This document shows, piece after piece, positions 8,141-45,901 of a stretch of 49,859 nucleotides of DNA. The position numbers and the translations under genes are program-made. The first letter of the stretch is position 1. Each line of letters begins with the position of its first letter. This DNA comes from Labilithrix sp. (GTDB taxonomy: Bacteria; Myxococcota; Polyangia; Polyangiales; Polyangiaceae), in assembly GCA_028287035.1 (NCBI GenBank), contig JAQBQL010000255.1, forward strand, positions 1 through 49,859, in the 5' to 3' direction. The notes below the pieces were generated by a model. The model searched no databases and was not told where the DNA came from. It worked only from the letters and a program-made list of their open reading frames with translations.

Positions 8141-9646
8141 GTGCGGAGGCCTGGGGCGGCGATCGTGGGCGTGCTCCTCTGCGCGCTCGGCCGTCAGGCG
8201 GCGGCCATGGAGCCCGAGATCACCTCGGACACCGCGGCGCAGTTCTACGACGTCCGGAGCCCCACCGGCGAGACCGTCATCACGCGGCGCCGCCTCACGA
8301 CCAGCCTCGGCGTGAGCGCCTACGATCTCTACGCCGACGAGGACCCGCGGGGACCGAGCGTCACGTTCCGGGCGCGCCTCCGCTACGACGCCGATTACGG
8401 GGGTGATGCCGCCGCGACCACGCCCACGAGCGCCCGCCTCGTGCCCGGCTTCGACCGTGGGCCCGTCGACCTCATGTACGGCTACGTCGAGGGCCGCCGC
8501 TTCCTGAAGGGGTGGCTCGGCTTCAAGCTCGGTCGGCAGTACGTCGTCGACGCGCTCGGCTGGTGGTCCTTCGACGGAGGCGAGGTGAAGATCACGGCGC
8601 CCCGCTACGTGGCCCTGGAGCTCTTCGGGGGCCTCGAGCAGCGCGGGGGCATGCCCTTCTCGACGCCCCGCTTCGAGCGGGACGGCGTGTGGCGCGGGGA
8701 CCGGAGCGGCTACGACCCGTCGGTGTATCCGTCGTTCCAGCCGAGCGACGTCGCGCCCGCGTACGGCGCCGCGCTCGAGTCGACGGGGAGCAACTGGCTG
8801 CACAGCCGGCTCACCTACCGGCGCGTGTACAACACGGGCGGGTCCAACGTGACCCAGTTCGCGAGCGGGACCACCGCCCCCTTCGCCTACCGCGGCTCGC
8901 GCATCTCGTCGGAGCGCGTGGGGTGGGGCTTCGACGGCACCCTCCCCAAGGCGGGCGGCGTGAAGGGCGGCCTCCAGTACGACGTCTACAACGCGAAGAT
9001 CGCGAACGTGTTCGCCTCCGTCGACGCGTACGTCGGCAAGCGGCTGACGCTGAGCCTCGACTACGAGTATGCGGTCCCCACGTTCGACGCCGACTCGATC
9101 TGGAACTTCTTCCTCGCCATGCCGATGAACGACCTCGGCCTCCGCGCCTCGTACGACGCGAGCGATCACTGGGCGCTCGGCGGCGGCGTCCGCGCGCGCG
9201 CCTTCGGCGTTCAGACCGCGCCCGAGACCGGGCTCACCGAGCCGACCTCGCCCAACGCGCTCACGACGCAGAGCTACTACCCGGCGGGGAGCCTCGACGT
9301 CATGGGCGGCGGCGACGTGTCCGCGCGCTGGCACTTCGGCGAGGGGTCGGTGGGGGTACGCGCCAACGCCGACGTCGCGCGCACCGGCGACCGCATCGGC
9401 GCCGATCTCCAGGCGGAGCGCACCCTCGAGACCCGCTTCCTGCTGAGCGCCCGGACCGGCGTGTGGCAGTGGAGCGACGACCAGCGCGAGGGCCGCGACG
9501 CGACGAGCTTCCAGTACGTGGTCGGCGCAGGCTACAAGCTCCGCTCGCGGTCGCTCGTGTACGTGGATTTCGAGCACGACATGAACCGCCTCGCCGGGCA
9601 TCGCCTGCGCGGGATGCTGTGGCTCAGCGTGGCGGTGACCAAGTGA
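8141..9646 (+). CDS. Outer-membrane beta-barrel protein, partner of the 13-haem cytochrome
   Basis: 501 residues from GTG 8141, with a signal peptide cut after about residue 22 (RQAAA|ME). The mature protein is rich in alternating hydrophobic and polar strands with aromatic girdles (LSLDYEYAV, ARWHFGEGSVGVRAN, RSLVYVDFEHDM), as in large transmembrane barrels. It does not end in the common C-terminal Phe, and no named porin family is obvious to me. Its stop overlaps the GTG of the multihaem cytochrome gene (GTGA), so the two are coupled. By analogy with porin-cytochrome pairs of metal-reducing bacteria it could sheath the cytochrome across the outer membrane; this is inferred from context. Confidence 0.75.
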   Translation: MRRPGAAIVGVLLCALGRQAAAMEPEITSDTAAQFYDVRSPTGETVITRRRLTTSLGVSAYDLYADEDPRGPSVTFRARLRYDADYGGDAAATTPTSARLVPGFDRGPVDLMYGYVEGRRFLKGWLGFKLGRQYVVDALGWWSFDGGEVKITAPRYVALELFGGLEQRGGMPFSTPRFERDGVWRGDRSGYDPSVYPSFQPSDVAPAYGAALESTGSNWLHSRLTYRRVYNTGGSNVTQFASGTTAPFAYRGSRISSERVGWGFDGTLPKAGGVKGGLQYDVYNAKIANVFASVDAYVGKRLTLSLDYEYAVPTFDADSIWNFFLAMPMNDLGLRASYDASDHWALGGGVRARAFGVQTAPETGLTEPTSPNALTTQSYYPAGSLDVMGGGDVSARWHFGEGSVGVRANADVARTGDRIGADLQAERTLETRFLLSARTGVWQWSDDQREGRDATSFQYVVGAGYKLRSRSLVYVDFEHDMNRLAGHRLRGMLWLSVAVTK

Positions 9647-10911
9647 AGGCGCGCTGGCTCTTCCTCCTGATGGCGCTGGTGCTGCTCGCTGCGTGCACGG
9701 CGCTCGCGCAGGACCAGGCGTCCGGCCCTCCGCCGCCGCCTCCGCCGGTGGCGGTGAAGGCGCTCCCTCCCGGCGCCGACCCCGGAGATCCGGGGCCGAG
9801 CAAGGCGATCTTCCCGCCGCAGAAGCTGACCATCCGGTTCGACCACAAGCTTCATGCCGCGCAGGGCGCGTCGTGCACCACGTGCCATCCCGGCGCGGTG
9901 ACGAGCACGAGCGTCGCCGACCACCTGACGCCGAAGGGCACGACGTGCGACGGCTGCCACGGCACCAAGCACGACGACCCGAACCACGTCGCGGCGGGGC
10001 CCGAGGCGAACGGCGCCTGCGTGACGTGCCACCTCGGCTACCACGAGGGCGACGGCAACAAGGTCGCTCGTTTCGAGATCCCACGCGCCAACATGCGCTT
10101 CGATCACCGCACGCACGCCGCGCGCAACATCGGATGCGCGCAGTGCCACGGCGACGTGCAGGAGATCGATCTCGCGACGCGTGACCAGCTGCCCCGCATG
10201 CGCGGCTGCATCGGCTGTCACCAGCATCCCGACGCGGCGGCCCGCGGTGACGCGAAGGCGGCGTGCGAGACCTGCCATCTTCCGGCGGGTCCGCAGGAGG
10301 GCGGGCGCATCCGCACCATGTTCCCGAGCGGCACCCTCGAGCCGCCTCGCTGGCTCCACAACGCGCAGCACACGCCGGACTTCCTCCAGCGCCACAAGCT
10401 GGTCGCCGCGAGCGACTCGCAGTTCTGCGCGAGCTGCCACAAGGAGGAGTACTGCACGGCGTGCCACGACGGCCGCGTGCGTCCGCGCAGCATCCATCCG
10501 AGCGACTACCTGAACATGCACGCGGTCGAGGGCCGGCTCGCCACGCAGAAGTGCACGAGCTGCCATCAGGAGCAGAGCTTCTGCCTCGGCTGTCACCAGC
10601 GCGTCGGCGTCGCGACGAGCGGCGGCGCCAAGGACTCGGGGCGCTTCCATCCGCCGAAGAGCATCTGGAGCGATGCGCCGCGAAGGCCCGGGCACCACGC
10701 CTTCGAGGCGAACCGGAACCTCAACGCCTGCGTCAGCTGCCACATCGAGCGCGACTGCGTCGTCTGCCACGGCGGCCAGGGGATCGGCGGCGGCTTCAAC
10801 CCGCACGGCGGCGGGTTTGTCGGCGGTTGCGCAGCCCAGCTCCGGCGAAATCCGCGGCCTTGCTACGTCTGCCACGACCCGGGTGCGGCCGTGCTGCAGA
10901 GGTGCAAGTGA
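9643..10911 (+). CDS. Exported 13-haem c-type cytochrome (cytochrome c3/c7-like), probable lipoprotein
   Basis: 422 residues, GTG start overlapping the previous stop. The leader ends LLAAC, a lipobox, though signal peptidase I cleavage after TALA is an alternative. I count thirteen CXXCH haem-attachment motifs in order: CTTCH, CDGCH, CVTCH, CAQCH, CIGCH, CETCH, CASCH, CTACH, CTSCH, CLGCH, CVSCH, CVVCH and CYVCH. Histidines preceding the first haems (FDHKLH, FDHRTH) match the distal-ligand pattern of class III cytochromes, so bis-His haems are likely. A Pro-rich linker of about 20 residues separates the anchor from the haem part. No enzyme domain is seen; the role is most likely long-range electron transfer in the envelope. 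Whether it reaches the surface is unknown. Confidence 0.95.
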   Translation: MKARWLFLLMALVLLAACTALAQDQASGPPPPPPPVAVKALPPGADPGDPGPSKAIFPPQKLTIRFDHKLHAAQGASCTTCHPGAVTSTSVADHLTPKGTTCDGCHGTKHDDPNHVAAGPEANGACVTCHLGYHEGDGNKVARFEIPRANMRFDHRTHAARNIGCAQCHGDVQEIDLATRDQLPRMRGCIGCHQHPDAAARGDAKAACETCHLPAGPQEGGRIRTMFPSGTLEPPRWLHNAQHTPDFLQRHKLVAASDSQFCASCHKEEYCTACHDGRVRPRSIHPSDYLNMHAVEGRLATQKCTSCHQEQSFCLGCHQRVGVATSGGAKDSGRFHPPKSIWSDAPRRPGHHAFEANRNLNACVSCHIERDCVVCHGGQGIGGGFNPHGGGFVGGCAAQLRRNPRPCYVCHDPGAAVLQRCK

Positions 10912-36949: not shown

Positions 36950-37820
36950 GCCCCTCGAACTGCACGTCGGCCGCGTCCGCGAAGCGGCGGCGCATCGTGG
37001 CGATGGCCTCGTCCGCCGCGTCGACGAGGACGAAGCGCCGGCCACACTCGCGCGCCGCGACGCCCGTCGTGCCGCTGCCCGCGAAGAAGTCGAGGACGAG
37101 CCCGCCGGGCGGACACGAGGCGCTCACGATTCGGCGAACGATGCCGAGCGGCTTCTGCGTCGGGTACCCGACCTTCTCCTTGCCGGTGGGGCTCACGATG
37201 GTGTGCCACCAGGTGTCGGTGGGGAGCTTGCCGCGTGCGGTCTTCTCGGGGCCGACGAGCGCCGGCGCCATGTAGGCGATGCGGTCGACCTCGCGGGTGT
37301 CGAAGTGGTAGCGCGCCGGGTCCTTCACGTAAAAGAGGATGTTGTCGTGCTTGGCGGGCCACCGCGTCTTGCTGCGCGCGCCGTAGTCGTACGCCCAGAT
37401 GATCTCGTTCAGGAACGACGCGCGGCCGAAGATCGTGTCGAGCAGCACCTTGCAGTAGTGCACCTCGCGATAGTCGATGTGGAAGTAGAAGCTGCCGGTC
37501 GGCGCGAGCACGCGGTAGCCCTCGCGGAGGCGGGGCTCGAGGAACGCGAGGAAGTCGTCGAACGTGTCGCGGAACCCCGCGTCGGTCGAGACGCGCTCGG
37601 TGCGGTAGCGCTGGCCAGCGAAGCCGGTGCGATCGCCGCCGCCGTCACGCACGGTGCGCAGGCGGTCGCGCTTCTGCACGCGCCCCGTGTTGAAGGGCGG
37701 ATCCACGTACACGAGGTCGACGGAGCCGTCCGGTAGCGTGCGGAGCACGTCCAGGCAGTCGCCCTGGATGACGCGATCGGGAGCGCCACCGGCCGAGATC
37801 GCCCGCTCGCGCATGGCGGC

Positions 37821-37830
37821 ACGATATCAT
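37821..37830. promoter_or_regulatory. Back-to-back overlapping -10 elements for two leaderless genes
   Basis: The ten bases acgatatcat contain TATCAT on the plus strand (37825-37830) and TATCGT on the minus strand (37826-37821). Each hexamer is exactly 6 bases from a start codon: GTG 37837 for the DUF6986 gene and ATG 37814 for the methyltransferase. Both transcripts would begin at the first base of the start codon. No Shine-Dalgarno is present for either gene, which fits. This also supports the two chosen starts. Confidence 0.55.
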
Positions 37831-37836
37831 GGCGAG

Positions 37837-39180
37837 GTGACCCCGCGGCCCACACGAACGTCCCTCGCGCCGGCGCGCGCCTCCGCGCTCGTGCGCGAGC
37901 TCGCCGCCGCCGAGCGCACGCCTGCACGAGGTGCCGGGCTCGCGCCGGTCCACGTGCTCTACGGCGGCGCGCATCTGTTCAAGAAGGGCTCGCCCGCGAA
38001 GCTCGGGGCGATCGCCCGCGCCGCCATGGAGACGTACGGCGCCGACGACGAGGCCTTTGCCGAGGTGGTCGGCGCGCCCGGTGCGATCGCCGGCGAGCTG
38101 GCGGCCCGCGTGCGGGAGACGCTCGCGAACGGCGCCGTGCAGAAGAGCGTGATCGACTTCGAGGATGGCTACGGTCCGCGCCCCGACGACGAGGAGGACG
38201 CCGACGCAGAGCGCACGGGACGCGAGCTCGCCCTCGAGCACGCCGCGGGCGGCGCATCGATCCTCGGCATCCGCATCAAGGCGCTCGACGCCGCGACCGG
38301 CGCCCGCGCGGTCCGCACGCTCGACCTCTTCGTGACCGCGCTCCTCGAGGCAACGTCCGGCGCGCTGCCGCGGGGCTTCTCGGTCGCGCTGCCCAAGGTG
38401 ACGCGGCCGCAGCAGGTGGCGGCGCTCGCCGAGCTGCTCGCGGAGCTCGAACGATCGCTCGGCGTGCACGATGCACGCATCGCCATCGAGCTCATGGTGG
38501 AGACCCCGCGCGCGCTCCTCGACGAAGATGGGCGCGCGGCGCTGCCGGCGCTGGTCGCGGCGGGCGATGGCCGCGTCACCGCGGTGCATCTCGGCGCTTA
38601 TGATCTGACCGCCGCCCTCGGCATCACGGCGAGCGAGCAGCGGCTCGATCACCCCGCGTGTGACGCGGCGCGGACGCTCATCCAGCTCTCGCTCGCGGGC
38701 ACCGGCATCGACGTGTTCGACGGCGCCACGACCATCCTCCCCATCGCGCCGCACCGGGGCACCGAGGGCGCGCCGCTCAGCGAGGGGCAGCGCCTCGAGA
38801 ACGTGAACGCGGTGCGCTCGGCCTGGCAGCTCCACGCCCGGGCGGTGCGCCGCGCGCTCACGACCGGGATCTACGCCGGCTGGGATCTCCATCCCGCCCA
38901 GATCCCGGCGCGCCTCGGGGCGGTACACGCGTTCTTCCTCGGCGAGCGCCGCGCGATGAGCGAGCGCCTCGCGAGCTTCGTCGAGAAGGCCACGCGGGCG
39001 ACGCGAACGGGCCGGATCTTCGACGATGCCGCGACCGGACAGGGGCTCGTCGAGTTCTTCCTCCGGGGCGTCGCCAGCGGGGCGCTCACCGAGGCCGACG
39101 TGGCCGCGACGACGCTCACGCCGGGCGAGCTCCGCGGCCGCTCCTTCGCCGCCATCGTGGCGCGCCGGAGCGGCGCATGA
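37837..39180 (+). CDS. DUF6986 protein (HpcH/HpaI aldolase / citrate-lyase-like)
   Basis: 447 residues from GTG 37837, chosen because a TATCAT -10 places transcription start there; an in-frame ATG at 37813 lies inside the methyltransferase start. The fold is the PEP/pyruvate TIM barrel of the HpcH/HpaI group: DFEDGYGPRPDDEEDAD supplies the acidic metal site, then GIRIKALD, FSVALPKVTRPQQV, IELMVETPRAL, HLGAYDLTAALGI, and YAGWDLHPAQIP. The set matches the family I know as DUF6986, which as far as I recall is found near urate and allantoin genes in actinobacteria. The reaction is not established; a lyase acting on a C-C bond of a glyoxylate- or ureidoglycolate-related acid would fit the urate operon nearby. 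Its stop overlaps the next ATG (ATGA). Confidence 0.85.
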   Translation: MTPRPTRTSLAPARASALVRELAAAERTPARGAGLAPVHVLYGGAHLFKKGSPAKLGAIARAAMETYGADDEAFAEVVGAPGAIAGELAARVRETLANGAVQKSVIDFEDGYGPRPDDEEDADAERTGRELALEHAAGGASILGIRIKALDAATGARAVRTLDLFVTALLEATSGALPRGFSVALPKVTRPQQVAALAELLAELERSLGVHDARIAIELMVETPRALLDEDGRAALPALVAAGDGRVTAVHLGAYDLTAALGITASEQRLDHPACDAARTLIQLSLAGTGIDVFDGATTILPIAPHRGTEGAPLSEGQRLENVNAVRSAWQLHARAVRRALTTGIYAGWDLHPAQIPARLGAVHAFFLGERRAMSERLASFVEKATRATRTGRIFDDAATGQGLVEFFLRGVASGALTEADVAATTLTPGELRGRSFAAIVARRSGA

Positions 39181-39820: not shown

Positions 39821-41455
39821 CTAGGGCGCCTCGGAGCGGAACGTGAAGGCAAGGGTGGCGCTCTTCCGCGCCTCGACCTTCAGCTTCTGCGTCTGCCGGC
39901 CGAAGGTCTCGGTCCAGGCCTCGAGCTCGTAGTCGCCCTCGGGCACGTTCTGCAGGGTGAACTCGCCGGCGTCGTTCGACACCGCGAAGAACGGGTGCGG
40001 GACGACGCCGAGGAACGCCGCCATCCACGGGTGCACGTCGCACTTGGCGCGAACCATGACCTCCGGCTTGTCGAAGGTCTTGGACAGCCGCATGTCCTTC
40101 GTCGGCATCATGTCGTTGAAGGGCGCGTTCTGCTCGGCGATCGAGCGCACGTTGTGGAGCACCGGGTCGCTGTTCAGGAACACCACCTTCTGGCCGACCT
40201 GCGCGCCGATGACGTGCGGATGATAGAGGCAGCCCTTCTGGTCCATGACGATCGGGGCGGCCGGCGGCTCGCCGCCCTTGTAGGACTCGAGGCCCTTCTT
40301 CACCCAGACGAATGCATTCTGCAGCTTTCCGTCCTTCACCATGACCGCGTCCGAGAAGACGGGGCCCTTCGCGTCGGTGGTGCAGGTACCGAGGTTCAGC
40401 TCCTTCGGGGCGGGCGGCTTCCCGTCGAGCCTGACCGTGCCCTTGACGGACCCGACGATCGCCTCGTTGGCGACCTTGGCGGGGCCGCCGGTGCTCTGCG
40501 GAGCGCTCGCGGTGAGCGGTCCCGACGCCGGGTCGTCCGCGGCGGGCGCCGGGTCGGACGAGGTCAGCGCGGAGTGACCGATCGTGAACGCGACGGCGAG
40601 CGCGCCGATGAGGATGCCGGGCGACAGCTCCTTCGTCTTGTTCTGGAGGTGCCGGATGCCCGCGCCGAGCAGCATGAGGCCGCCCAGGATGATCCAGTTG
40701 TACTTGCTGCCGTACGCACCCGGGAAGTGGTTCGACAGCATGGTGATCACGACCGGATAGGTCATGTAGTTGTTGTGGCGGGAGCGCGTCTTCGCGTGCT
40801 TCGCGAGCTTGGGATCGGGCTTCGTCCGCGCGTTGACCGAGGCGACGAGCGCCTTCTGCGCCGGGATGATGTGCACCCAGACGTTCGTGGCCATCCACGT
40901 TCCCATCATCGCGCCGGTCATCAGGTACGCGGCGCGGCCGCTGATGACGTGGGAGAGGTGCCACGTGTTGCCGATGACGAACACGTACGTGATGAGCGCG
41001 CCGACGTAGACGTTCTTGACGAGCGGCGAGCGCCACAGGAGGTCGTAGACGAACCACGAGGCGATGAGCCCGCCCACGCAGACGAGGCTTGCGACCGTCG
41101 GGCTGATGCTCGACACGTTGGGATCGACCAGGGTGACGCCGCCGCCCTGGAAGAACACGATGTCCATCAGCACCCAGCCGGTGAGCAGCGTGAAGCCCGC
41201 CTCCCACTTGAACCAGTGCAGGCGCTTCGGCATCGCCTCGGGCGCGATGAGCTTCTTCTCCACCTGGTAGAAGCCGCCCGAGTGGACCATGTAGAGCTCG
41301 CCCTCGACGCCCTTGCGCGACGCGTCGTCGACGTGGTCGAGATGGCTGTCGAGCCAGTTGAAGAAGAGCGAGCTACCGATCCACATGATCCCGCTGATGA
41401 CGTGGGCCCAGCGGACGAAGAGGTTCAGCCATTCGGTGACGGTCGCAGCAGACAT
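39821..41455 (-). CDS. puuD: Urate hydroxylase PuuD membrane domain fused to a cupredoxin-like domain
   Basis: 544 residues, ATG at 41455, 14 bases after uraH. Residues 1-300 are the PuuD (DUF989-type) membrane domain with about 7-8 helices: VRWAHVISGIMWIGSSLFFNWLD, the loop GGFYQVEKKL, LHWFKWEAGFT, GNTWHLSHVISGR, and MTYPVVITMLSNHFPGAYG. PuuD oxidises urate to 5-hydroxyisourate and in the described enzymes passes electrons to its own C-terminal cytochrome c. Here there is no CXXCH. Residues about 335-544 instead form a cupredoxin-like plus carboxypeptidase-regulatory-like module: QKGCLYHPHV, NSDPVLHNV (H434), KCDVHPWM (C472, H475, M478), PHPFFAVSNDAGEF. His-Cys-His-Met in this order fits a type 1 copper site. 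Copper use is inferred. Confidence 0.9.
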   Translation of the reverse strand: MSAATVTEWLNLFVRWAHVISGIMWIGSSLFFNWLDSHLDHVDDASRKGVEGELYMVHSGGFYQVEKKLIAPEAMPKRLHWFKWEAGFTLLTGWVLMDIVFFQGGGVTLVDPNVSSISPTVASLVCVGGLIASWFVYDLLWRSPLVKNVYVGALITYVFVIGNTWHLSHVISGRAAYLMTGAMMGTWMATNVWVHIIPAQKALVASVNARTKPDPKLAKHAKTRSRHNNYMTYPVVITMLSNHFPGAYGSKYNWIILGGLMLLGAGIRHLQNKTKELSPGILIGALAVAFTIGHSALTSSDPAPAADDPASGPLTASAPQSTGGPAKVANEAIVGSVKGTVRLDGKPPAPKELNLGTCTTDAKGPVFSDAVMVKDGKLQNAFVWVKKGLESYKGGEPPAAPIVMDQKGCLYHPHVIGAQVGQKVVFLNSDPVLHNVRSIAEQNAPFNDMMPTKDMRLSKTFDKPEVMVRAKCDVHPWMAAFLGVVPHPFFAVSNDAGEFTLQNVPEGDYELEAWTETFGRQTQKLKVEARKSATLAFTFRSEAP

Positions 41456-41469
41456 CGATCGGTTTTCCC

Positions 41470-41808
41470 TCAGCTACCGCGGTACGTGGAATAGCCGTAA
41501 GCGCTGAGCAAGAGCGGTACGTGGTAATGGGAGGCGGCGTCGCGGATGGTGAACACGATGCTCGCCTCGGGATAGAAGCCCTCGACGCCCTGCGCCGCGA
41601 AGTACGCCGCGGTGTCGAAGGTGATGCGATACACGCCGGTCTCGAGCTGGCCCTCGGGAACGAGCTCCTTCACGCGGCCGTCGGCGTCGGTGCTCGCGGC
41701 GAGCACCTGGGCGTAGGCCGCGCCGTTCTTCTTCTCGAGGACGACCGGCACGCCCTGGGCCGGACGCCCGCGCGTGATGTCGAGCACGTGCGTCGAGACC
41801 GACCTCAC
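41470..41808 (-). CDS. uraH: 5-hydroxyisourate hydrolase (transthyretin-like)
   Basis: 112 residues from GTG 41808, overlapping the stop of the fusion gene (GTGA). The enzyme hydrolyses 5-hydroxyisourate, the PuuD product, to OHCU. Diagnostic features are STHVLDITRGRPA with the catalytic His near the N-terminus, ETGVYRITFDTAAYF, YPEASIVFTI, HYHVPLLLSAYGYSTY and the invariant C-terminal YRGS. Length is normal for the cytosolic tetrameric enzyme. There is no signal peptide. It is transcribed between the fusion gene and puuD. Confidence 0.97.
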   Translation of the reverse strand: MRSVSTHVLDITRGRPAQGVPVVLEKKNGAAYAQVLAASTDADGRVKELVPEGQLETGVYRITFDTAAYFAAQGVEGFYPEASIVFTIRDAASHYHVPLLLSAYGYSTYRGS

Positions 41809-43394
41809 CGGAGCACCAGCTTCTCGAGACGGAGCTCGGTGATCTTGCGCTGCTCGTCGACGGCGCGACGGAGCTCGGTCTCGGGATCGTTCTGCATGCG
41901 TTCCTTCGCGATCTCGAGCATCTCCTCGATGCTCTTGCCGGTCGCGCAGACGATGTAGATACGCGAGAACCTCTCCTCGTATGCGCGATTCGTCTGCTGC
42001 AGCGCGTCGCGCGTGGCCTGGCTCGCGGCGTCGACGGACGACTGCTCGCCCTTGCTCCAGGCCTTCGCGGTCGCGCTCTGCGTCGCGGCCGCCTTCTGCT
42101 CGCCGATGCGCGGATGCGCGCGGAACGCCTCGTCCCAGTCGGTCGTGGCGAGGCGCTGCCAGATCTGCGCAGCGCGCTCCTTCAGCGAGGCGAGCGTCGC
42201 GAAGGCAGCCGGGTCCCGCTGCCGCTCGGCCGCGAGCTCGCGGACGAACCGCGAGGAGCCGCAGCACGAGGTCAGCGCCGCCACGAGCTCGGGCTCCGGC
42301 ATCGCACGGAGGTACTGCATGCCGGCGCGCTCGCGCCCCTGGTCCGTCGCGAGCCCGAAGAGCCGCAGGCGCGAGACGCCCCCGTCCGGCCAGATGCGCA
42401 TGCGCACGTGCGTGGCGGGAGTGTGGCTGCCGGGGAGGGCGGCGAGCTCGTCCTCGAAGACGTGAGGCGTGTGCGGCTGGAGGCTCGTTCGCGCGAGCAG
42501 CGGCACCCATCCTTCGTCCTTGCTGCCGTCCGGGTCCGGGGCGCCCGGGGGAACGCTCGCGACCTCGAGCGACGCGAAGTCGGGCGCGTTGCCCTTGAAG
42601 TGCAGCGTGTCGAGCACGACTCGCTCGATGAGGCCCTCGGTCGCGAGCCGCGTGACGACCCAGTCCGGGCCGGGCCGGCGCCCGCGCTTCGTCTCCCAGC
42701 CGTCGCCCATGTTCACGCCGCGGCCCGGCATGATCAGGTTGTGGCGCGAGCCGAAGAACATGTCGTTGCACGCGACGACCAGCGCGCCGTTCTCCGCGGC
42801 GGCGAGGTCGACGAGCTGCGGGCGCGCGCGGCTGCCCAGCCACCGCGCGCTCGGCAGGACCTCGCCGTGCACGCGGAGCCGCGCCACGCCGCCATCGGGA
42901 TAGATGTGGAAGCGCAGGTGCGTGAAGCGCCGGCTCGCGCCGGCGATCTCGAAGTAGTTCTTCGAGCCGCCCTTCAGGGTGGCCTGCTCGCGCGGCAGGA
43001 TCGGCGTCCACGTGATCGCGTCGCTCAGCAGCGTGGCGAGCGACGGATGGCCCTCGATGCTCGCGCCCTCGAGCGCGCACGCCTGCGGATAGTTGCCGGT
43101 GAAGAACGCGGTATCGACGACCACCGCGCGCACGAGGCCGGGCAGCCCGAGGCGGATGATCGCCGAGTCGAAGTCGGGATGCGGGCCGGGGGTCGTGAAC
43201 GCGTAGTCGCGGCGGCGGCGGGACTCCCAGCCGTCCATCCACTTGCCGCGGTCGGTGTACTTGCCTTCGATGAAGACCGCCTCCTGCGGCTTCAGCAGGT
43301 TGTCCTTGCTCGCGAAGAAGTCGTCCGAGGCCCACAGGACCGAGCCGCCGAGGCGCTCCGCGGCGAGGTCGACGAGATGCGTGAGGTCGCTCAT
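41805..43394 (-). CDS. alc-uraD: Allantoicase fused to OHCU decarboxylase (UraD)
   Basis: 529 residues, ATG at 43394, 9 bases after allB. Residues 1-350 are allantoicase, a duplicated jelly-roll (about 17-178 and 202-348) with GGSVLWASDDFFASKDNLL, GKWMDGWESRRRR and the mirrored FFGSRHNLIMPG, GDGWETKRGR; it splits allantoate to ureidoglycolate and urea. Residues about 360-529 are OHCU decarboxylase: SSRFVRELA, AHPRIGE with the catalytic His427, AYEERF, YIVCATGKSIEEMLEI, RMQNDPETELRRAVDEQRKI. That domain converts OHCU to S-allantoin. The two steps are not consecutive, since allantoinase acts between them. Each half has full family length, so both are probably active. No frameshift is involved. 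Confidence 0.93.
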   Translation of the reverse strand: MSDLTHLVDLAAERLGGSVLWASDDFFASKDNLLKPQEAVFIEGKYTDRGKWMDGWESRRRRDYAFTTPGPHPDFDSAIIRLGLPGLVRAVVVDTAFFTGNYPQACALEGASIEGHPSLATLLSDAITWTPILPREQATLKGGSKNYFEIAGASRRFTHLRFHIYPDGGVARLRVHGEVLPSARWLGSRARPQLVDLAAAENGALVVACNDMFFGSRHNLIMPGRGVNMGDGWETKRGRRPGPDWVVTRLATEGLIERVVLDTLHFKGNAPDFASLEVASVPPGAPDPDGSKDEGWVPLLARTSLQPHTPHVFEDELAALPGSHTPATHVRMRIWPDGGVSRLRLFGLATDQGRERAGMQYLRAMPEPELVAALTSCCGSSRFVRELAAERQRDPAAFATLASLKERAAQIWQRLATTDWDEAFRAHPRIGEQKAAATQSATAKAWSKGEQSSVDAASQATRDALQQTNRAYEERFSRIYIVCATGKSIEEMLEIAKERMQNDPETELRRAVDEQRKITELRLEKLVLR

Positions 43395-43403
43395 GATCGC
43401 TTT

Positions 43404-44771
43404 TCAGTTCCTCTTCGTGAGCTGCCCGCGCGGCGCGCCGGTGAAGCCCTGGCCACGTTCGTAGATGGTCTCGCCGCGCAGGATGGTGCGATGGACCTGC
43501 CCGAGCAGCGTGCGCCCCTGGTAGGGCGTGATCTTGTGGCGGTGCTCGAGCGTCGCCGCGTCGATGACGTGCGCGGCCTCGGGATCCCAGAACACGAGGT
43601 CGGCGTCGTGGCCGGTGGCGATCGCGCCCTTGCGACCGTCGAGGCCGGCGAGGCGGGCCGGCGCCGCGCTCATCCATTCGACGAGGTCCCGTACGGTGCG
43701 CCCGCGCGAGCGCGCCCCGGTCCACACCGCGGCCAGCCCGATCTGGAGCGACGAGATCCCACCCCACGCCTTCATGAAGTCGCCGGAGCCGGAGCACTTC
43801 ATCTCGGCCGATGACGGCGAGTGGTCGGTGACCACCTGATCGATCATGCCTTCGCGGAGCGCCTCCCACAGGAGCTCGCGGTTCGACGACTCGCGGATCG
43901 GCGGGGCACACTTGAAGGCCGTCGCGCCGTCGGGGATCTCCTCGGCGGCGAACGTCAGGTAGTGGGGGCACGTCTCGACGGTGAGCGGCACCTTCGCGTC
44001 GCGGGCGCGCTTGATGGTGGCGAGCGCGTCGGACGACGAGAGGTGCACGATGTGCGCGCGCGCTCCCGTCTCGCGAGCCAGCCGGAGCACGAGCTCGACG
44101 GCGGCGTTCTCGGCGGCCCGCGGACGTGACTTCAGGAACGTGTGGTAGCTGCGCGGATCGAGGCCGAGCGCGGCCTTCTCGCCGTCCGAGAGCGGACCGG
44201 GAAGCTCGGCATGGACGAACAGCGGCGCGCCGGTCCTGGCAATCTCGTGCATGCCGGCGCGGAGCTCGCTCTCGTGCACGTGCGAGAACTCACCGACGCC
44301 GCTCTCGGCAAGGAAGCACTTGAAGGCGAGCGCGCCCTCGCGAAAGAGGTCGGCGAGGCCGCCGTTCGGTCCCGCGTTGCCGGGCACGAGGCCGCCGCAG
44401 AGCGCGACGTCGACGCGCGCCTTCTCCTCGAGCGCGCGGACCTTGGCGTGGAGGCCGTCCAGCGTCGTCGTCGGCGGGATGCTGTTGAGCGGCATGTCGA
44501 CGAGCGTGGTGACTCCGCCCGCCGCCGCCGCGCGCGTCGCGGTCTCGAAGCCCTCCCAGTCGGCGCGGCCAGGATCGTTGATGTGGACGTGCGTGTCGAC
44601 GAGGCCCGGCAGTACGCACAGCGTGCCCGCGTCGAGCGTGGCCATCCCCTCGGGGACGGCGGCGCGCTCGACCACGCCGGCGATGCGTCCGTCCTTGATC
44701 AGCACCGCGCCGTCCCGCTCGCCCACGGGTGTGAAGATGCGGCGCCCGACGATCGCTAGCTCTCCAGGCAT
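43404..44771 (-). CDS. allB: Allantoinase (cyclic amidohydrolase)
   Basis: 455 residues, ATG at 44771. It opens the hydantoin ring of allantoin to give allantoate. The dinuclear metal site is complete: DTHVHIN (H61, H63), the lysine normally carboxylated in AFKCFL (K151), FVHAE (H187), IVHLSS (H243) and VTDHSPS (D316). No signal peptide, so it is cytoplasmic. It is the first gene of the four-gene urate operon; the next start is 9 bases downstream. Dihydropyrimidinase is the main alternative in the superfamily, but neighbours and motifs favour allantoinase. Confidence 0.95.
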   Translation of the reverse strand: MPGELAIVGRRIFTPVGERDGAVLIKDGRIAGVVERAAVPEGMATLDAGTLCVLPGLVDTHVHINDPGRADWEGFETATRAAAAGGVTTLVDMPLNSIPPTTTLDGLHAKVRALEEKARVDVALCGGLVPGNAGPNGGLADLFREGALAFKCFLAESGVGEFSHVHESELRAGMHEIARTGAPLFVHAELPGPLSDGEKAALGLDPRSYHTFLKSRPRAAENAAVELVLRLARETGARAHIVHLSSSDALATIKRARDAKVPLTVETCPHYLTFAAEEIPDGATAFKCAPPIRESSNRELLWEALREGMIDQVVTDHSPSSAEMKCSGSGDFMKAWGGISSLQIGLAAVWTGARSRGRTVRDLVEWMSAAPARLAGLDGRKGAIATGHDADLVFWDPEAAHVIDAATLEHRHKITPYQGRTLLGQVHRTILRGETIYERGQGFTGAPRGQLTKRN

Positions 44772-44781
44772 TTCGGGACGC

Positions 44782-44787
44782 AGTCTA
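44782..44787 (-). promoter_or_regulatory. Candidate -10 element (TAGACT) of the urate operon
   Basis: On the minus strand TAGACT ends 10 bases before the allB ATG (44771), giving a leader of about 4 bases. It lies in the 83-base gap shared with the divergent NlpC/P60-like gene. No clear -35 or regulator palindrome was recognised in the gap. Confidence 0.3.
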
Positions 44788-44854
44788 GGGTCGGCGGGCC
44801 GCGGGACGAAAGGATTGTGCGCAACCCGCCCGGCGAGGGGCCGACCGACCGCCC

Positions 44855-45901
44855 ATGACCATCTCGGGCCTGAACGCCGACCTCCGGACCGCCCGCCTCC
44901 GCGACGAGAACGACGCGAGGACTGCACCGACGACGACGCGCTCCGCGCCTTCGCAGGCGGAGCGCGACGCGCGCGCGCAGGATGCCATCGAGCGGCTGCC
45001 GGCGCCGGCCATCGACTACGCGGGCCTCGCCGCGGCCTCGGGCGTCGCTCCGCCGGACCCGCAGGCGGCCCGCGAAGCGGCGGTCCGGGCGCGCATGGAC
45101 GCGTGCCGTGATGCCGCCAGCGGACCGTACCTCGTCGAGGGCCAGGCGGTGGCCGCGGCGCCGATGTTCCGGATGACCGCGCACGTCATCGACAAGAAGA
45201 CGCTCGCGGAGCTCCAGACCGTGGCGAAGGGCGCCGGGCTCGAACGCGAGCTGCAGTCGATGAAGGTCGGGCAGCCGCGGGCCTCTGCGCTCGTGAAGAT
45301 GACGCAGGCGCTGATCGATGCCGGCAAGCTGCCGGCCGAGCCGCGCGATCCAGCGCTGCGGGTGAAGGCGATGCAGTGGAAGTACGGGATCGGCTTCGAC
45401 TGCGCCGGCTACTCGAAGGAGGCCCTCCGCAGCGCCCACGGGTCGCGCCTCGCGTTCCATGCGCCGGGCATGGAGAGCTTCCGCGACCTCGACACCGACC
45501 GGAAGGGCCAGTACGCGAGGGTGCCGCTCGCCAGCGCGCGCCCCGGCGATCTCCTCACGCTCGATGCCGCGGCGGGCGGCACGTACGGCCACAACGTGGT
45601 CGTCTACGACAACCGCAAGGAGGACCCGGCGGCGCGCGCGGCGCTGGTCGCGGCGCACGGACCGGCGATGGCGGCCTTCCTGTCGCCGCCCGGCGCCTCG
45701 CGCATCCTGCAGGTCGACTCGTCGTGGGGCGCAGGCACGGACGGCGCCAAGGAGGGCGGCTACCGCCGGGACACGTGGCTCTACAACGAGCAGACGAAGG
45801 AGTGGGCGTCCTTCCGCCCCGGCACGACGCCTCCCGAGCTCGTCGTTTCGCGCGAGGGCCCGTCCGAGGACCGTTACCATGGAGTCTACCGGCCCCGATG
45901 A
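44855..45901 (+). CDS. NlpC/P60-like (papain-fold) cysteine peptidase or amidase candidate, no signal peptide
   Basis: 348 residues, ATG at 44855. No signal peptide or membrane helix. The first 170 residues are polar and helical (AELQTVAKGAGLEREL, SALVKMTQALIDAGKLP). A C-terminal region looks like the NlpC/P60 or CHAP fold: nucleophile Cys in GIGFDCAGYSKEAL, then ASARPGDLLTL and GGTYGHNVVVYDN with the His, and a possible polar third residue in LQVDSSWG. Such enzymes usually cut peptidoglycan peptides, yet this one would stay in the cytoplasm unless carried by another secretion route. Its stop overlaps the start of an exported protein gene (ATGA). The assignment rests on short motifs. Confidence 0.65.
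   Translation: MTISGLNADLRTARLRDENDARTAPTTTRSAPSQAERDARAQDAIERLPAPAIDYAGLAAASGVAPPDPQAAREAAVRARMDACRDAASGPYLVEGQAVAAAPMFRMTAHVIDKKTLAELQTVAKGAGLERELQSMKVGQPRASALVKMTQALIDAGKLPAEPRDPALRVKAMQWKYGIGFDCAGYSKEALRSAHGSRLAFHAPGMESFRDLDTDRKGQYARVPLASARPGDLLTLDAAAGGTYGHNVVVYDNRKEDPAARAALVAAHGPAMAAFLSPPGASRILQVDSSWGAGTDGAKEGGYRRDTWLYNEQTKEWASFRPGTTPPELVVSREGPSEDRYHGVYRPR

Follow-up and report, generated by a model that had tools for sequence, protein, structure and literature searches.

A PuuD-type membrane domain joined to a predicted cupredoxin

We analysed a 49,859-nucleotide stretch of Labilithrix sp. DNA (contig JAQBQL010000255.1), referred to here as the window, which encodes on its reverse strand a 544-residue protein (39821..41455, an open reading frame with an ATG start). 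The protein is likely to be a PuuD-like membrane urate oxidase whose built-in electron carrier is a type-1 copper cupredoxin instead of cytochrome c. PuuD is a cytochrome c urate oxidase (COG3748, DUF989/PF06181). The one detailed description of it that we found (Doniselli et al. 2015, PMC4562309) reports CXXCH as strictly conserved across all PuuD sequences, presents the cytochrome c as a constant and essential part, derives the enzyme from a fusion event involving cytochrome c, and mentions impaired purine use in Sinorhizobium ccmC mutants. Our computation revealed the fusion, its urate gene run, the predicted cupredoxin fold, an invariant ligand set and the repeated exchange of carriers.

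The membrane domain (residues 1–295, 40571..41455; reverse strand here and below unless stated) matches PF06181 (Urate_ox_N/DUF989) almost completely, over residues 5–290 (E 3.2e-102, 342 bits, profile positions 2–286 of 295), which bears out an earlier note, made from the sequence alone, that had called it intact. Both AlphaFold models contain eight helices of at least 16 residues, the number expected of PuuD and counted here in the models themselves, together with a conserved hairpin, VHSGGFY (residues 57–63). Residues R15, W16, H18, H58, G60, G61, F62, Y63, H80, W81, F82, E85, W134, Y137, D138, N191, P198, Q200, R224, S225 and N228 are among those invariant in a 34-row alignment spanning cytochrome, cupredoxin and carrier-free types. 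Every one of the 31 proteins with a C-terminal cupredoxin has the HxGxFY hairpin, as do the N-terminal fusion and the neighbouring-gene variant described below; among cytochrome rows the count is 89 of 94, and among carrier-free rows 23 of 27. In an alignment of 155 rows, identity reaches 97% or more within each carrier type at 19 positions, gaps aside, and no position differed between the types by the criterion used. Because the conserved residues and the hairpin are kept and no position is type-specific, the catalytic side of the window protein looks intact, judging from its sequence.

A motif scan found neither CXXCH nor CXXXCH anywhere in the 544 residues, as the earlier note had stated for CXXCH, and no cytochrome Pfam family matched the protein; the C-terminal CXXCH cytochrome c of PuuD is absent. 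In its place, the C-terminal domain (residues 335–540, 39836..40453) is predicted from homologues, conservation and AlphaFold (pLDDT mostly 90–98) to comprise a Greek-key cupredoxin followed by a carboxypeptidase-regulatory-like sheet. The cupredoxin core (residues 400–486, 39998..40258) holds the predicted copper ligands H434 (40154..40156), C472 (40040..40042), H475 (40031..40033) and the axial M478 (40022..40024), in the cupredoxin order that the earlier note had read. In a phmmer alignment they fall on the amicyanin motifs HNV and CTPHPFM, H434 on the HNV histidine and C472 on the cysteine; the match is weak (phmmer E 0.08–0.6; profile E about 0.01 to 0.35). Each of the four is invariant in 140/140 fused and 68/68 unfused rows of an alignment from which identical rows and rows with fewer than 120 aligned residues were left out, among them P0114, whose frame stops before the motif. 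This invariance, together with homologues of 55–85% identity from many contigs, argues that the ligand pattern exceeds chance. Histidine, cysteine, histidine and methionine in this order, invariant and aligned with the amicyanin ligands, match the ligand set expected of a type-1 cupredoxin.

The carboxypeptidase-regulatory-like end named in the earlier note matches PF13620 at residues 491–538 only below the Pfam cut-off (27.7 against 32.3 bits), and the string QKGCLYHPHV quoted there is present. C409 is invariant in the 140 fused rows and C358 nearly so (138/140), so that a C358–C409 disulphide is possible on grounds of conservation. Apart from the copper ligands, H487 (140/140 fused rows) and a W-H-E motif (residues 514–516) are conserved; the histidine of the motif occurs in 134/140 fused rows and is replaced by T515 in the window. 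These residues could possibly form a second site or play a structural role.

The fusion might also be a chimeric artefact, in which assembly or gene prediction joined a PuuD gene to an independent cupredoxin gene. Two-gene DUF989–cupredoxin pairs do exist (L036, L278, L279), though we found no support for such an origin, and the fusion is common to at least 120 listed homologues, aligned over most or all of the length at 55–85% identity and coming from many contigs. These fused homologues refute the chimera, the probability of which we regard as negligible.

Genomic context of the fused gene

The PuuD-type gene is the last in a same-strand run that begins with allantoinase AllB (43404..44927; TIGR03178 E 5e-167, above cut-off), followed by an allantoicase fused to OHCU decarboxylase (URAD) (41805..43394; PF03561 and PF09349, with TIGR02961 and TIGR03180 above cut-off) and a 5-hydroxyisourate (HIU) hydrolase of the transthyretin family (stretch tested, 41470..41862; PF00576 E 7e-38, TIGR02962 above cut-off). 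PuuD genes are expected to lie near genes for HIU hydrolase and OHCU decarboxylase, as here. Of 24 fused loci, 20 have urate-pathway genes in the fetched stretches. None of the 24 genomes with the fused form or the neighbouring-gene variant yielded a uricase (PF01014), a count for which genome completeness was not told and FAD-dependent urate oxidases were not searched.

A DUF6986 (HpcH/HpaI aldolase-like) gene lies close to the urate run on the forward strand (37627–39180). Of the 320 loci fetched, 22 others (one a duplicate) carry a homologue, and the gene may therefore be part of purine or ureide breakdown.

Distribution and exchange of carriers

We sought PF06181 in genomes of Myxococcota (377), Acidobacteriota (297), Planctomycetota (294), Verrucomicrobiota (194) and the class of G020 (142), the phylum labels being taken from the loci leading to each set. 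Genes scoring at least 290 with a membrane profile built here were called PuuD-like (n=154), and L278–L280, which scored lower, were counted as mid-length. Duplicate loci (the same gene twice) were dropped before counting, as was the second copy in G1282; L116 (a stop breaks the frame) and L290 (internal stop) were not counted as full-length, and the partial or split genes of Myxococcota G241, G206, G187 and G100 were left out of the classification. This survey, which the earlier note had suggested as a search for partners lacking CXXCH, gave 121 genes with CXXCH after the membrane domain, 17 with a fused cupredoxin, one with a neighbouring cupredoxin gene (L036) and 15 with neither. These counts include the five survey-centre genomes, three of which (G001, G008, G009) were picked for having the fusion; without the five, the 149 genes divide into 120, 14, 1 and 14, respectively. 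Cytochrome and cupredoxin types number 83 and 10 in Myxococcota, with the neighbouring-gene variant in addition, and 3 and 6 in Planctomycetota. Acidobacteriota have no cytochrome type, one cupredoxin type and 13 genes with neither, one of which (L136) has no hairpin and may not be PuuD. Verrucomicrobiota (8) and the class of G020 (27) have cytochrome types and one gene each with neither.

Hairpin-bearing PuuD genes without an attached carrier include L018, L023–L026, L063 and L122–L133 (Acidobacteriota) and L024, L033 and L038 (Verrucomicrobiota or similar). Many of those in Acidobacteriota adjoin urate-pathway genes, and no recurrent carrier gene was seen near carrier-free PuuD in the stretches read. 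In some cytochrome-type PuuD open frames (L212, L213, L214, L206, L102), the membrane domain is followed by a pair of CXXCH motifs with a spacing of about 105 residues.

Carriers have been exchanged more than once. In a tree of 155 membrane domains (rows below 268 bits were left out of the trees), the C-terminal cupredoxin label needs seven changes, and well-supported branches force at least three; on a careful 62-row tree the cupredoxin label needs four, two of them forced by well-supported branches. The cupredoxin rows formed one group in 0 of 200 bootstrap trees of the 62 rows, and a constraint uniting all 22 of them was rejected (p-AU 0.0019); the equivalent constraint on the 28 cytochrome rows was borderline (p-AU 0.0487). 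Because the tree is unrooted, the direction of change is not readable from it. The window protein belongs to a starred clade of cupredoxin types, in which the rows with names are Myxococcota. One small clade unites three cupredoxin layouts, namely C-terminal (L012, L240), N-terminal (L159) and a divergent separate gene (L036). L036, L012 and L240 are together again in the cupredoxin tree (99*), where L159 lies elsewhere on a long branch in an open fork.

The Planctomycetota gene L159 (556–2310) encodes a PuuD with an N-terminal cupredoxin behind what appears by eye to be a signal-like stretch. Since both termini of the eight-helix domain share one side and the N-terminus of L159 is signal-like, N- and C-terminal carriers would lie on the same side, presumably the periplasmic one. 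Loop 5–6 of the window protein has three K/R against one D/E, and loop 1–2 is balanced (six against seven, with approximate loop ends), so the charge evidence on topology is weak.

DUF989 genes outside urate metabolism

Shorter DUF989 genes adjoin separate cupredoxin genes of the same family at 12 of 21 Planctomycetota loci, within flanks of 1.5 kb, and two more pairs lie at about 1.3 kb by coordinates (G725, G830). As the 21 Planctomycetota genomes contain 61 cupredoxin matches, 1 to 7 each, the chance expectation, roughly estimated, is well under one pair. Such pairs were also found at 1 of 17 Acidobacteriota loci and at 6 of 21 Omnitrophota loci, the latter picked by cupredoxin, and in Myxococcota L278 and L279 the cupredoxin gene directly follows the DUF989 gene with overlapping open frames. 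A strict lipobox pattern occurs in 10 of 22 separate cupredoxins adjoining a DUF989 gene. At 20 Myxococcota loci with short DUF989 genes (L241–L260, the best 20 listed by E-value and not a random draw), no cupredoxin was found, and 13 have a homologous monohaem CXXCH protein nearby. Short or mid-length DUF989 genes beside a separate cupredoxin include L160–L180, L034, L041, L047, L060, L062, L079, L148, L278 and L279. The hairpin is absent from all these groups (0/21 Planctomycetota, one masked; 0/17 Acidobacteriota; 0/20 short Myxococcota; 0/6 Omnitrophota; neither L278 nor L279), and no urate gene was seen around the cupredoxin-paired genes in the fetched stretches.

Because hairpin-less DUF989 genes pair with either carrier, the alternation of copper and haem extends outside urate metabolism. 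The chances seem to us evenly divided as to whether DUF989 is a general membrane dehydrogenase core exporting electrons to a plug-in periplasmic carrier, repeatedly swapped between haem c and type-1 copper (fused to either terminus, encoded by a divergent or directly following gene, or supplied by a neighbour with a lipid anchor), with urate as one use among several. The earlier note had described a single fusion; that fusion is real, and the exchange is wider, extending to an N-terminal cupredoxin, a neighbouring gene, carrier-free PuuDs and non-urate DUF989 proteins with cupredoxins.

These hairpin-less genes, paired with cupredoxins away from urate genes, also bear on whether the window protein is still a urate oxidase, since it might be a cupredoxin-bearing DUF989 protein acting on another substrate and located in a urate operon by chance. 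We consider this quite improbable: both the hairpin and the PuuD-conserved residues are retained in the window protein, its run encodes HIU hydrolase, URAD, allantoicase and allantoinase, most fused loci have urate-pathway genes (20/24), and the PF01014 search found no uricase (24/24 genomes).

Proposed mechanism and its implications

In the mechanism we favour, the membrane domain would oxidise urate on the cytoplasmic side, as the PuuD literature and the conserved residues suggest, and electrons would cross to the periplasmic face to reduce Cu(II) held by H434, C472, H475 and M478 on the tethered cupredoxin. Amicyanin passes electrons from methylamine dehydrogenase to cytochrome c; by analogy, the copper site might hand single electrons to a soluble partner in the respiratory chain. 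What we infer in this scheme is the binding of copper, the oxidation of urate, the direction of the electrons and their downstream partner.

Several observations weigh against it. Of the 154 PuuD-like genes, 15 lack both an attached carrier and, within the fetched stretch, a cupredoxin gene, so that an attached carrier is not needed everywhere; no fusion was found in the Acidobacteriota genomes surveyed besides the survey centre itself; and four of the 24 fused loci (L006, L044, L157, L218) have no urate gene in the fetched stretch. In the PuuD study, electron transfer to cytochrome c is inferred, not measured, and azide shows no specific inhibition (PMC4562309). The carrier-free genes would suit a cupredoxin that binds copper in an accessory role, for example as a superoxide scavenger or copper buffer, while the membrane domain uses oxygen or quinone directly; superoxide scavenging by the cytochrome domain is raised by Doniselli et al., who prefer electron transfer (PMC4562309). 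We regard the accessory role as unlikely: electron transfer better fits the invariance of the ligands, the swap with another one-electron carrier at the same place, and the occurrence of this cupredoxin family beside non-urate DUF989 genes.

Elsewhere in the window, an 834-residue open frame on the forward strand (8407–10908) contains 13 CXXCH motifs and probably encodes a multihaem cytochrome of the same organism. The copper-for-haem swap was thus probably not forced by the absence of haem c.

If copper indeed serves an unchanged catalytic domain, what the enzyme requires is a one-electron carrier, not specifically haem; the exchange suggests that either metal can receive the electrons of one and the same urate chemistry. 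The copper site, traceable near 600 nm without a haem background, would offer a handle on the electron exit, with the natural swap serving as an internal control. With other DUF989 proteins paired in parallel with the same cupredoxin or a monohaem cytochrome, this uncharacterised family would become testable as an electron-exporting module. Annotation has brushed against the fusion, with many such proteins labelled "uncharacterized membrane protein/plastocyanin" by JGI and several labelled "urate hydroxylase PuuD" by NCBI; no paper describing a cupredoxin-fused PuuD was found in the open-licence PMC literature, mostly screened as listings.

Comparison with known systems

The window protein resembles PuuD in its eight-helix membrane domain, conserved residues, urate gene context and a carrier attached C-terminally behind helix 8, on the side predicted to be periplasmic, and differs in that its carrier is a cupredoxin instead of a CXXCH cytochrome. 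With Paracoccus amicyanin it shares the predicted fold and the ligand order His ... Cys-x2-His-x2-Met, the loop being CDVHPWM in the window and CTPHPFM in amicyanin. The amicyanin ligands are H53, C92, H95 and M98 (PMC12723479), the very spacing that the earlier note had singled out as tighter than in plastocyanin; the spacing is thus not new. The proposal of that note, a blue-copper outlet in place of haem, is supported in part, by a full predicted type-1 ligand set at the place of cytochrome c, a urate operon, many genomes and repeated exchange. Amicyanin is free and soluble and serves methylamine dehydrogenase, whereas the window cupredoxin, about 25% identical over the core, is tethered and followed by the carboxypeptidase-regulatory-like sheet. 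The purple cupredoxin of Nitrosopumilus (PDB 5fc9), which has an arginine at the M478 position in the alignment shown, and cupredoxin-domain copper oxidases (9cck, 6hbe) are among the top profile and Foldseek matches. The whole domain, with the same ligands and about 42–52% identity, recurs in stand-alone "plastocyanin" or "carboxypeptidase regulatory-like domain-containing" proteins of Omnitrophota, Acidobacteriota, Calditrichia and others, which differ from the window protein in being encoded by separate genes, some with a lipobox pattern.
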